Origin: Syntrophomonadaceae bacterium
GTDB taxonomy: Bacteria; Bacillota; Dethiobacteria; DTU022
Length of the DNA: 61,006 bases
Assembly: GCA_007130825.1 (NCBI GenBank)
Contig: SLRT01000060.1
Coordinates: 1-61,006 of the forward strand
Direction of reading: 5' to 3'
In this document: piece by piece, positions 8,017-12,372 of the stretch
Position numbering within the stretch: position 1 is the stretch's first letter
Layout: the number at the start of each line of letters is the position of its first letter
Made by a program: the position numbers and the translations under genes
Notes under the pieces: generated by a model
Database searches by the model: none
What the model was told of the DNA's origin: nothing
The model's input: the letters and a program-made list of their open reading frames with translations, nothing else

Positions 8017-8275
8017 AAAAATTGAAGAGATGACTTATGAAGAAGCGGTAAAGCGATTGGAAGAAATCGTCAGCCGCCTGGAAAATGCCGAAATACCCCT
8101 GGAGGAATCGCTGTCTTCTTTCCAGGAAGGAATTGCCCTTTCCCGTTACTGCCGGGAAAAACTGGCCGAAATCGAATACCGGGTGGAATACCTGCTTAAA
8201 GAAGAACAGCAGCAGTCTTTTGATCTTGAAGGCGGCAAGACAGGGGAGAATAATGGTGATGGAGACGAAAAATGA
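8006..8275 (+). CDS. xseB: Exodeoxyribonuclease VII small subunit
   Basis: The product has 89 residues with the XseB signature: MTYEEAVKRLEEIVSRLENAEIPLEESLSSFQEG and ending in a charged tail. XseB forms a helical bundle bound to the C-terminal region of XseA. The start TTG 8006 lies 9 bp after AGGAGG (7991-7996) and overlaps the end of xseA by 11 bp; an in-frame TTG at 7988 would sit ahead of that site. The stop overlaps the ATG of ispA (ATGA), so xseA, xseB and ispA are translationally linked. Confidence 0.95.
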   Translation: MTDKKIEEMTYEEAVKRLEEIVSRLENAEIPLEESLSSFQEGIALSRYCREKLAEIEYRVEYLLKEEQQQSFDLEGGKTGENNGDGDEK

Positions 8276-9156
8276 TCGATATTGATCAATACCTGGATGA
8301 GAAAAGAAAGAAGGTCAACCGGGCCTTAAAAAAATTCCGGGCGCAGTCCGGACCGGCTGCGGTCATCGATGCGATGAACTACAGCCTGGAAGCCGGAGGA
8401 AAACGGCTCAGGCCGATTCTTACCCTGGCGGTTGCCGATACCCTCGGTTCAGAAGATGATTCGATTATCGACGTGGCCTGCGCTTTAGAGCTTGTGCACA
8501 CCTACTCTCTGATCCACGATGATCTTCCGGCCATGGATGACAGCGACCTGCGCCGGGGAAAGCCAACCTGCCACAAGGTTTACGGCGAAGCAATCGCTGT
8601 TTTGGCCGGTGATGCTTTGCTGACCCTGGCTTTTGAGGTTCTCGGCAGCTACGGCCGGCAGGAAGGGTATGCCGGTAAGGCGATAAAAATTATTGCCGAA
8701 CTGTCCGGGGCATCCGGGGTACGGGGTATGATCGGCGGGCAGGTTCTCGATCTTGAAGCCGAAGGTAAAGAATTGACCAGGGCCGAAGTAGAGGATATCT
8801 CTGCGAAGAAAACCGGTGCCCTGCTGCGCGCGGCAGTCATTTGCGGAGCTATAGCCGCCGATGCCAGTTTAGAAGAACAAAAAATACTCAGCGCTTATGC
8901 TTCCAATATCGGAACCGCTTTTCAGATTACCGATGATTTGCTTGATCTGGAAAGCAGCGCAGAAGAATTAGGCAAACCGGTTGGAGCGGACCGGGAACGC
9001 TTTAAACCGACCTACCCGGCAGTCATCGGCCCGGAAGAGGCCAGGCGGGAAGCGGAAATATTTTATCAGCAATCGGTTGCATCGTTAAGAAACCTAAACC
9101 AGCCTGCGGAGCTGTTACAGGAACTGGCCCGGAAGCTTGTTTTTCGGAAAAAATAA
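8272..9156 (+). CDS. ispA: Polyprenyl diphosphate synthase (farnesyl diphosphate synthase type)
   Basis: The 294 residues contain the two aspartate-rich motifs of trans-isoprenyl diphosphate synthases, DDLPAMDD (first) and DDLLD (second), plus GGKRLRP and the KKTGALLRAA segment typical of bacterial IspA. It condenses dimethylallyl or geranyl diphosphate with isopentenyl diphosphate to make farnesyl diphosphate for quinone, undecaprenyl and membrane lipids. It overlaps xseB by 4 bp. It lies with dxs in the same neighbourhood, interrupted by the noncoding RNA at 9295-9871. A small 6-bp hairpin (9167-9172 with 9179-9184) follows the stop but has no T run. Confidence 0.94.
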   Translation: MIDIDQYLDEKRKKVNRALKKFRAQSGPAAVIDAMNYSLEAGGKRLRPILTLAVADTLGSEDDSIIDVACALELVHTYSLIHDDLPAMDDSDLRRGKPTCHKVYGEAIAVLAGDALLTLAFEVLGSYGRQEGYAGKAIKIIAELSGASGVRGMIGGQVLDLEAEGKELTRAEVEDISAKKTGALLRAAVICGAIAADASLEEQKILSAYASNIGTAFQITDDLLDLESSAEELGKPVGADRERFKPTYPAVIGPEEARREAEIFYQQSVASLRNLNQPAELLQELARKLVFRKK

Positions 9157-9259: not shown

Positions 9260-9288
9260 TTGTTTGTAAACAAAGGTTGTGCTATGAT
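9260..9288 (+). promoter_or_regulatory. Sigma-A promoter for the OLE RNA
   Basis: TTGTTT at 9260-9265 is separated by 17 bp from TATGAT at 9283-9288. Transcription would begin near 9295, about ten bases ahead of the 5' arm of the RNA's closing helix. The 103 bases between ispA and this promoter contain only the small hairpin noted with ispA. The promoter means that the RNA could be made independently of the upstream operon. Confidence 0.75.
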
Positions 9289-9294
9289 ATGGTA

Positions 9295-9871
9295 CTGAAG
9301 ACAGCATAAGTGGTGCAGTATTCTAGTTGGCGCTCCTTTTCGAAAACGGGCCTAAAAATCCGTTAAGGGCACATCGATGAAGTTCCTGGTGGTGGCCGCC
9401 GACGCCCAGTCGGGGGCTGCTGCTGGGAGTTAAGAAGGATGGGGCGATCTACAATGGCATGTAGGCGTTGACCCTGCCTTCGTGGAGACCCAATGTCCGT
9501 GGCGTATTGTTCACAAAAACAAAAGGTTACGGCTTGGGCATGAACCTGCATGCGGTGCGAAGCTGTGTGCAGTGTAGCCTGCCTTGAGTGGAAAGGGTGG
9601 AGGAGATTAATCTTTCTCTTAAACCCTTTCTGCAAAAGAGGCTAGGAAAGACAAGGCGCCAGGGAGGAAATCTCCTAGACTGCTCTCGAAGGAGAGGCAG
9701 GCCAGGGATTAAAGTGTGAGCTGAGTGGTAATCCAGCTCCGCCGGTGGTGACACGGCGGGGATAGTCTTAAAAGGGAACTGCCGGCTCGGCAACGAGAGG
9801 TGATTATCCGGGAAATCCTGCTGGACCTAAGCCGCAAAGTTTACCTGGCCTGTCACCACTTATGTTTTTTT
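9295..9871 (+). ncRNA. ole: OLE (ornate large extremophilic) RNA
   Basis: About 575 bases between ispA and a small membrane protein gene hold no credible protein frame but strong RNA structure. CATAAGTGGTG (9305-9315) pairs perfectly with CACCACTTATG (9854-9864), closing the whole element, and seven T residues (9865-9871) follow as a terminator tail. Internal hairpins include 9737-9744 with 9754-9761 (eight pairs including one G-U) and 9680-9687 with 9692-9700. Length, position between ispA and dxs, and the adjacent oapA gene match the published OLE RNA of Bacilli and Clostridia, a membrane-associated ribonucleoprotein RNA linked to Mg2+, cold and alcohol stress. I did not align it to the family model; ends are inferred from promoter and helix. 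Confidence 0.85.
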
Positions 9872-9889
9872 CTACAAAGGTGATATAAT

Positions 9890-10468
9890 TTGGCAGATAA
9901 AAGAAAAAGTCGTCGCCGGATCCGCTGGATATTTGTTATCTCAATTTGGACATTTTTTTTAGCTGTTGCGCTCAGCTTTTTATCACATTATTTTTTAAAT
10001 GAAATAGAGTCAATTGCCGCTTCTTTTTTGATTTTACTGCTGGTCGTTTTAATCGGGATTATTTTTGACCTGATCGGCACCGCGGCGGCGGCAGCTGATA
10101 TCGGGCCTTTAAACGCCAAGGCTGCCCGCAGGGTCAGCGGAGCAAAATGCGGAGTCAATCTAGTCAAAAATGCAGAGCGGGTTGCAACTTTTTGCAATGA
10201 TGTCGGCGGCGATATCAGCGGTATAATCAGCGGCACGCTGGTGACTGTAATCGTTTTCAAGCTGGTGGTGAACTTTTCTCATCATCAGGAAGAATTCTAT
10301 CTCGGTATCCTGCTGACCGCATTGATTGCCGCTTTGACAGTCGGAGGTAAAGCATGGGGTAAAATTATTGCGATCAATTATTCGACCGAAGTGATCCTTT
10401 TTGTCGGTTCGGTGATCACTAAACTGCTCCGACCGTTTGGCTGGGTTTATAAAAGTGGTAATAACTGA
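9890..10468 (+). CDS. oapA: OLE-associated membrane protein OapA
   Basis: This 192-residue protein begins with a basic stretch (KRKSRRRIR) and has about four hydrophobic helices (residues 12-30, 42-66, 115-128 and 139-155 roughly). The second helix runs into DLIGTAAAAADIGPLNAKAARRVSGAKCG, reminiscent of the DUF21 domain of CorC/CNNM magnesium transporters, to which OapA has been compared. OapA binds OLE RNA at the membrane. Start TTG 9890 lies 5-6 bp after AAAGGTGAT and 19 bp after the RNA's T run. The same transcript may continue into dxs, 8 bp downstream. Identification rests on size, topology and its place beside the RNA. Confidence 0.85.
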   Translation: MADKRKSRRRIRWIFVISIWTFFLAVALSFLSHYFLNEIESIAASFLILLLVVLIGIIFDLIGTAAAAADIGPLNAKAARRVSGAKCGVNLVKNAERVATFCNDVGGDISGIISGTLVTVIVFKLVVNFSHHQEEFYLGILLTALIAALTVGGKAWGKIIAINYSTEVILFVGSVITKLLRPFGWVYKSGNN

Positions 10469-10476
10469 GAGGTGGT

Positions 10477-12372
10477 ATGATGGAAGGTGTGCTCGGCGGT
10501 TTGAAACTGCCCGATGACTTAAAAGGCTTGGATGCGGATCAATTAAATGATGCTGCTTCTGAAATGCGTGAATATATGATTAAAACAGTGGCCGAAAACG
10601 GCGGCCACCTGGCGGCAAGCCTGGGGGTTGTCGAATTGGCCCTGGCTTTGCATAGTTATTACCACAGCCCGAAAGACCGCATTGTCTGGGATGTCGGTCA
10701 CCAGAGTTATCCGCACAAGTTACTGACCGGCCGGTGGAAACATTTTCCCACTTTACGCCAGTTCGAGGGTTTATGCGGTTTTCCAAAACCCGCTGAAAGT
10801 GAACATGACCCTTTTCTTACCGGTCACAGCAGCACTTCGATATCGGCGGCGCTCGGTCTGGCCCTGGCCCGCGATTATAACGGTGATGATTACAAGGTCA
10901 TCGCTGTTATCGGCGATGGCGCTTTAACCGGCGGCATGTCTTTTGAGGCCCTGAATCACGCCGGACATATCAAGGCCGACCTGCAGGTTATCCTTAATGA
11001 TAATGAAATGTCAATCAGTTCAAACGTGGGCAGCCTGTCCGCGTACCTGGGGCGCATCCGCTCCGATCCGAAATATTCCCGGCTGAAAAACGATTTCGAG
11101 AGTTTTGTCAGCCGTGTACCCTTGATCGGCAGCAAGGCTGTCGACTTTGCGGAAAGAATAAAGGGTGGCTTAAAATACATAGTCATGCCGGGGATGATTT
11201 TTGAAGAACTGGGGTTTACCTATTTCGGTCCGGTCGACGGGCATAATGTAACAGCAATCAAAAATATTCTCAAACAGGCCGATAAGATGAAAGGGCCGGT
11301 TTTGGTCCACGTGGTTACAGAAAAAGGGAAAGGTTATCATTATGCCGAGCGATCACCGGAAGTGTTTCATGGTATCGGTCCCTTTGACTTGAATAACGGC
11401 CTTCCGCTCAAAAAAAAGAAAGGTTCTTCCTATACTGAAATATTCGGACAGACCCTGATGCAGTTAGGCCGGCAAAACAATAAAGTGATGGCCATAACCG
11501 CCGCGATGACCGGCGGCACCGGCCTTGGGGCATTCGCCCGTGAATTTCCGGACCGGTTTTATGATGTCGGTATTGCCGAACAGCATGCGGTTACCCTTTC
11601 TGCCGGTTTAACTGCCGGGGGGATGCGGCCGGTCGTGGCTATCTACAGCACTTTTCTGCAGCGCGCCTACGACCAAATTTTACATGATATTTGTCTGCAA
11701 CACCTGCCTGTTGTTTTTGCGGTTGACCGGGCCGGCATAACCGGTGAAGATGGTGAAACCCACCAGGGGCTTTTTGACTTAAGTTTTCTGCGTAATATTC
11801 CGAACATGTCGATCATGGCCCCGGCCAATGAAGATGAACTGCAGCACATGCTGGTAACCGCACTGGATTATGACCGCGGCCCTGTTGCCGTGCGTTATCC
11901 CCGGGACAAGGGGGAAGGGGTGGAACTTGCTCAGCCGCACCCTATTCCCTGGGGCCGTGGTGAGTTGCTCAGGCCGGGCGAAGACTTATTGATTATTGCC
12001 GCCGGCACGGTGGTTAACTCTGCTGTGCAGGCTGCCGACCGGCTTTTTTGGCAGGGGATAAAAACAGCAGTAATCAATGCCCGGTTTGTTAAACCGCTTG
12101 ATGAGGAACTGATAATAAACTGGGCCCGGAAGTGCAGCCGCATAATTACTGTCGAAGAAAACGTTTTAGACGGTGGGTTCGGCAGCGGGATTTTGGAGTT
12201 ATTTGAAAAACAAGGCCTCTTTTTGCCGGTAAAGCGTTTGGGTATTAACGACCGGTTTGTTGAACACGGAACCAGATCAAAACTGCTTTCCTGCTACAAC
12301 CTTGATACCGAAGGTATTTATAATGAGGCCCTGGCTTTCGCCGGGGAAAAGGCCGTGAAAAATCAGAGTTGA
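10477..12372 (+). CDS. dxs: 1-deoxy-D-xylulose-5-phosphate synthase
   Basis: The 631-residue protein has full family length and the thiamine diphosphate motif GDGALTGGMSFEALNHAG (from about residue 147), the substrate-pocket HGHSS-like segment DPFLTGHSSTSIS, and the transketolase-type DVGIAEQHAVTLSAGL and DRAGITGEDGETHQG blocks. It condenses pyruvate and glyceraldehyde 3-phosphate, the first step of the methylerythritol phosphate isoprenoid route, which is completed by the IspH domain encoded at 28946. GAGAGGTGGT precedes two adjacent ATG codons (10477, 10480). The stop overlaps tlyA (TTGA). Confidence 0.97.
   Translation: MMEGVLGGLKLPDDLKGLDADQLNDAASEMREYMIKTVAENGGHLAASLGVVELALALHSYYHSPKDRIVWDVGHQSYPHKLLTGRWKHFPTLRQFEGLCGFPKPAESEHDPFLTGHSSTSISAALGLALARDYNGDDYKVIAVIGDGALTGGMSFEALNHAGHIKADLQVILNDNEMSISSNVGSLSAYLGRIRSDPKYSRLKNDFESFVSRVPLIGSKAVDFAERIKGGLKYIVMPGMIFEELGFTYFGPVDGHNVTAIKNILKQADKMKGPVLVHVVTEKGKGYHYAERSPEVFHGIGPFDLNNGLPLKKKKGSSYTEIFGQTLMQLGRQNNKVMAITAAMTGGTGLGAFAREFPDRFYDVGIAEQHAVTLSAGLTAGGMRPVVAIYSTFLQRAYDQILHDICLQHLPVVFAVDRAGITGEDGETHQGLFDLSFLRNIPNMSIMAPANEDELQHMLVTALDYDRGPVAVRYPRDKGEGVELAQPHPIPWGRGELLRPGEDLLIIAAGTVVNSAVQAADRLFWQGIKTAVINARFVKPLDEELIINWARKCSRIITVEENVLDGGFGSGILELFEKQGLFLPVKRLGINDRFVEHGTRSKLLSCYNLDTEGIYNEALAFAGEKAVKNQS

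Follow-up and report, generated by a model that had tools for sequence, protein, structure and literature searches.

We show here that the interval between ispA and oapA in a Syntrophomonadaceae bacterium is a complete ole gene, encoding a known kind of large membrane-associated bacterial noncoding RNA. The gene lies on contig SLRT01000060.1, of which the whole analyzed stretch of 61,006 nucleotides is referred to as the window. With the Rfam covariance model of OLE (RF01071; gathering cut-off, 50 bits), positions 9294-9875 of the forward strand scored 497.1 bits (E 7.2e-143) across model positions 1-616 of 616, which bears out the identity proposed in an initial annotation made from the letters alone. 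Nucleotides 9295-9871 fold at -256.7 kcal/mol (z = -8.2 versus shuffles). The position upstream of a gene is all that favors a different structured intergenic RNA or an oapA leader at this place, and the 497-bit match with the whole OLE model, together with the adjacency of the diagnostic partner gene oapA, makes such an RNA extremely improbable; the covariance match led us to rule it out. The same initial annotation had regarded the RNA boundaries as complete, and this is backed by the full-length match, a promoter at a conserved position, and strong covariation of the helix that joins the two RNA ends, here termed P1. We are confident that ole is of the full-length type in this genome, with its own sigma-A promoter, closure by P1, and its partner OapA encoded 25 nt further on. 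By analogy with known OLE particles, OapA should bind the RNA at the membrane. The features are compiled in Table 1.

Table 1. Features of the ole locus, in window coordinates
Feature	Position	Strand	Basis
ispA (farnesyl diphosphate synthase), upstream gene	8272..9156	+	NCBIfam NF045485, 349 bits (cut-off 275); Pfam polyprenyl_synt
Putative sigma-A-type ole promoter, TTGTTT-17-TATGAT, extended -10	9260..9288	+	Sequence; 26/26 family loci
OLE RNA (RF01071), full length	9294..9875	+	497.1 bits, model 1-616; fold z = -8.2
P1, 5' strand	9305..9315	+	Exact complement of 9854-9864; covaries in 112 distinct loci
P1, 3' strand	9854..9864	+	Exact complement of 9305-9315; covaries in 112 distinct loci
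U-tract, candidate termination site	9865..9871	+	Directly after P1; T conserved in the family
oapA ribosome-binding site, AAAGGTGAT	9876..9884	+	Sequence; 4 nt past the U-tract
oapA, 192 aa, TTG start, OLE-associated membrane protein	9890..10468	+	tblastn homologues downstream of OLE
dxs, downstream gene	10477..12372	+	TIGR00204, 855 bits (cut-off 466)

A single OLE copy is present in the window's own genome. The model matched in 78 of 100 genomes of relatives searched; the 22 genomes without a match in this search include G008, G010, G018, G032, and G035, and some of them are nearly complete MAGs. The host belongs to Bacillota, as do OLE hosts, which are often anaerobic or extremophilic. Another locus from the same genus (L066) lies inside contig PWGD01000061 of the MAG Syntrophomonadaceae bacterium T1Sed10_2, and a soda-lake origin is suggested by the name of the isolate together with the literature on soda lakes. 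OLE was reported to make up about 1% of the noncoding RNA in a soda-lake sediment metatranscriptome (PMC6704655). The likeness of the locus to the OLE RNAs of H. halodurans and C. acetobutylicum comprises the full-length model match, the conserved core segments, the oapA and isoprenoid gene neighbors, a promoter of its own, and a helix that joins both ends of the RNA. Known OLE RNAs are about 600 nt long and abundant in cells.

The neighboring genes are those expected of an ole locus. The initial annotation had placed ispA upstream and a small membrane protein gene and dxs downstream, and the membrane protein proved to be OapA. By tblastn, an oapA homologue lies 3' of OLE in each of the 65 whole-genome loci, among them that of the window. 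Of the 75 named-genome loci, which were collected via the conserved core GGGCACATCGATGAAG, 72 have one as well; two of the three exceptions have fewer than 250 bases of sequence downstream. OapA of the window contains an NDxxxD motif near residue 104, resembling the paired residues D100 and D104 of the H. halodurans protein (PMC9723947). An L7Ae-family protein, which is a candidate OapC, and bS21 are also encoded in this genome. At the ribosome-binding position of oapA, AAAGGTGAT is found in most loci of the window's family.

The promoter suggested by the initial annotation was read directly from the sequence, with TTGTTT at 9260-9265, a spacer of 17 nt, and TATGAT at 9283-9288. A TG one base ahead of the -10 hexamer (TGC before TATGAT) constitutes an extended -10 element. 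Promoter hexamers spaced by 16-18 nt, with the -10 ending 11-20 nt before P1, recur at this position in every one of the 26 loci of the window's family, with TTGTCT-17-TATGAT in several close relatives and TTGAGA-17-TATAAT in others. The promoter was not listed in a scan for consensus promoters, because its -35 hexamer matches at only 3 of 6 positions. Conservation rather than the consensus scan supports this putative promoter, and the ole transcript is expected to start near 9295. ole was described as having its own promoter besides its membership in an operon (PMC9723947), with which the window promoter is in agreement. In family f7, -10 elements such as TACAAT, TAGAAT, and TAAAAT were observed upstream of ole, and the idea that this family lacks an ole promoter was dismissed.

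P1 consists of 11 bp between CATAAGTGGTG at 9305-9315 and its exact reverse complement CACCACTTATG at 9854-9864, precisely as anticipated, and it is present in both the minimum free energy and the centroid structures of 9295-9871. Among 112 distinct loci aligned in a fixed register, 86% of the cells are paired versus 31-56% when the register is slid by 1-3 positions. Two-sided compensatory cells number 287, compared with a mean of 103 and a maximum of 136 in 300 shuffles that ignore relatedness. P1 is secure despite this property of the shuffles, because many pair types occur across distant lineages; strand pairs include GGAATGGT/ACCATTCC and AAGTGGAGGTT/AACCTCCACTT in addition to CATAAGTGGTG/CACCACTTATG. 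The OLE consensus structure in Rfam differs in that it leaves both ends unpaired, without a closing helix. Our helix is almost certainly P1 of the published OLE model, and the RF01071 entry could be updated with this covarying element.

The terminator-like 3' end is the only part of this picture that is not clearly known already. In the literature consulted, the origin of the OLE 3' end is only presumed: H. halodurans OLE resides in a large operon and is "presumably posttranscriptionally processed" (PMC9723947). In the window, P1 is followed directly by a T run, also foreseen in the initial annotation, in which every position from 9865 to 9871 is a T. With a U-tract scored as at least six T in eight positions, downstream positions serving as controls, and kinship among the related genomes ignored, 81% of the 26 family loci (related MAGs, phylogeny uncorrected) carry one after P1 versus 6% at control positions. 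The corresponding frequencies are 47% versus 5% in family f5 and 19% versus 10% for OLE loci of named genomes, and those of families f7 and f8 are near controls. With the first base of the 3' strand as position 1, T is present at positions 12-18 in 85, 96, 100, 54, 77, 77, and 85% of the loci of the window's family, and A at the corresponding mirror positions 5' of the helix in 57, 53, 46, 23, 46, 65, and 57%. Pairing alone cannot explain the U-tract, because T is better conserved than the mirror A. A mere extension of P1 was therefore rejected as the sole cause of the T run.

The initial annotation took the closing helix to make the 3' end a ready terminator. Retention of the U-tract in the window's family and in a related family speaks for this claim, but the stem is long-range and AU-rich beside the tract. 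Like intrinsic (Rho-independent) terminators, the element has a stem, here 11 bp or longer, that abuts a U-tract of seven T a short distance upstream of the next gene. It differs from them in that a GC-rich hairpin with a short loop is absent: the P1 strands are 538 nt apart, and the base of the stem is AU-rich, with about 1% GC in the family at pairs 7-9 beside the U-tract. A terminator scan listed no plus-strand candidate ending at 9864, and no local hairpin was found at the OLE 3' end, where local pairing of the 8 nt that precede the U-tract is only 2%; a local terminator hairpin at this site was rejected on these grounds. Ordinary hairpin-plus-T candidates exist elsewhere in the window. 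Thermodynamic folding, which says nothing of kinetics, predicts a pairing probability for P1 of 0.87 for free RNA with polymerase at the end of the U-tract and of 0.92 once the 3' strand is entirely free. Until the 3' strand has been synthesized, the 5' strand is predicted to be only 46% free.

Expression of oapA bears on this question. According to the initial annotation, oapA and dxs may need read-through or another start. Read-through into both genes is a fair inference, because a convincing promoter between the RNA and oapA is lacking in the family. The candidate considered, TATAAT at 9884-9889, was rejected: it adjoins the ribosome-binding site, the promoter scan listed no -35 for it, and most relatives do not retain it. 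TATAAT occurs within 40 nt after P1 in 2 of 26 loci of the window's family versus 10 of 12 loci of family f7. In f7 it is located about 20 nt beyond the point at which the P1 3' strand begins, several loci having TG-N-TATAAT (L010, L020, L024, L029, L034, L036, L039, L043, L056, and L058 carry the hexamer). Judged by its sequence, it looks like a private oapA promoter, without a counterpart in the window's family. Since oapA in the window begins 25 nt past P1 without a convincing promoter, it would be deprived of transcription if termination were complete. Termination of only some polymerases, with read-through by the rest, fits this arrangement, and processing of a longer transcript would fit it too.

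We consider functional, partial termination by P1 possible, at somewhat less than even chances. With polymerase at the U-tract, P1 would pair the waiting 5' end with the newly made 3' strand, and its formation would release part of the polymerases. OLE RNA would then be in excess, with oapA-dxs fed via read-through. This model of release, OLE excess, and read-through is put forward tentatively. Close to an even chance is given to the alternative that OLE is cut or trimmed from an ispA-ole-oapA-dxs transcript, that P1 holds and protects its ends, and that the T run is an incidental part of an AU-rich spacer ahead of the oapA ribosome-binding site. Production from a polycistronic transcript and an own promoter, presumably followed by processing, is the view held for H. 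halodurans (PMC9723947, PMC12265935). The distance of only 4 nt between the T run and the oapA ribosome-binding site and the retention of P1 in lineages without a U-tract point in the same direction; because many Bacillaceae have P1 without a U-tract, P1 is not a terminator stem in general. Against processing stands the U-tract itself, which is conserved, lineage-restricted, far above control positions, and more T-rich than pairing needs. A variant of release by P1 is unlikely in our estimation: termination would await completion and folding of the entire OLE RNA, and OLE that is truncated or misfolded would permit read-through into oapA and raise OapA.

The two kinds of sequence found directly past P1 divide the lineages further. 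The U-tract of the window's family has no equivalent in many Bacillaceae loci, which have TACATA instead. This motif (often TACATAA) is separated from P1 by a few bases in 27 of 75 named-genome loci versus 2 at control positions, mainly in Bacillaceae, and mostly begins 13-19 nt past the beginning of the P1 3' strand; its bearers include L085, L092, L104, L122, L135, L141, L152, and L177. U-tract and TACATA are nearly exclusive, with 47 loci having only the former, 27 only the latter, and 2 both (kinship ignored). TACATA could be a 3'-processing signal. By eye, five loci (L073, L145, L174, L183, and L094) seem to have an ordinary hairpin followed by T just past P1. In some lineages, these among them, other routes to termination downstream of OLE may have evolved. 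Variation of the 3' end among species is likewise seen in ModT, the raiA-motif RNA (RF03072), also a conserved clostridial noncoding RNA, of which short and long forms arise via read-through to a separate downstream terminator (PMC11706538). ModT is, however, unrelated to OLE, and the separate downstream terminator is described for ModT.

To our knowledge, the biochemical function of OLE RNAs is still not known after almost 20 years of study. The lineages with a U-tract and those with TACATA directly past P1 offer a testable split for the formation of the OLE 3' end. If termination did require an intact and folded OLE, OapA supply would depend on whether the RNA is intact. Should P1 terminate transcription, a single short site would determine how much OLE is made relative to OapA.
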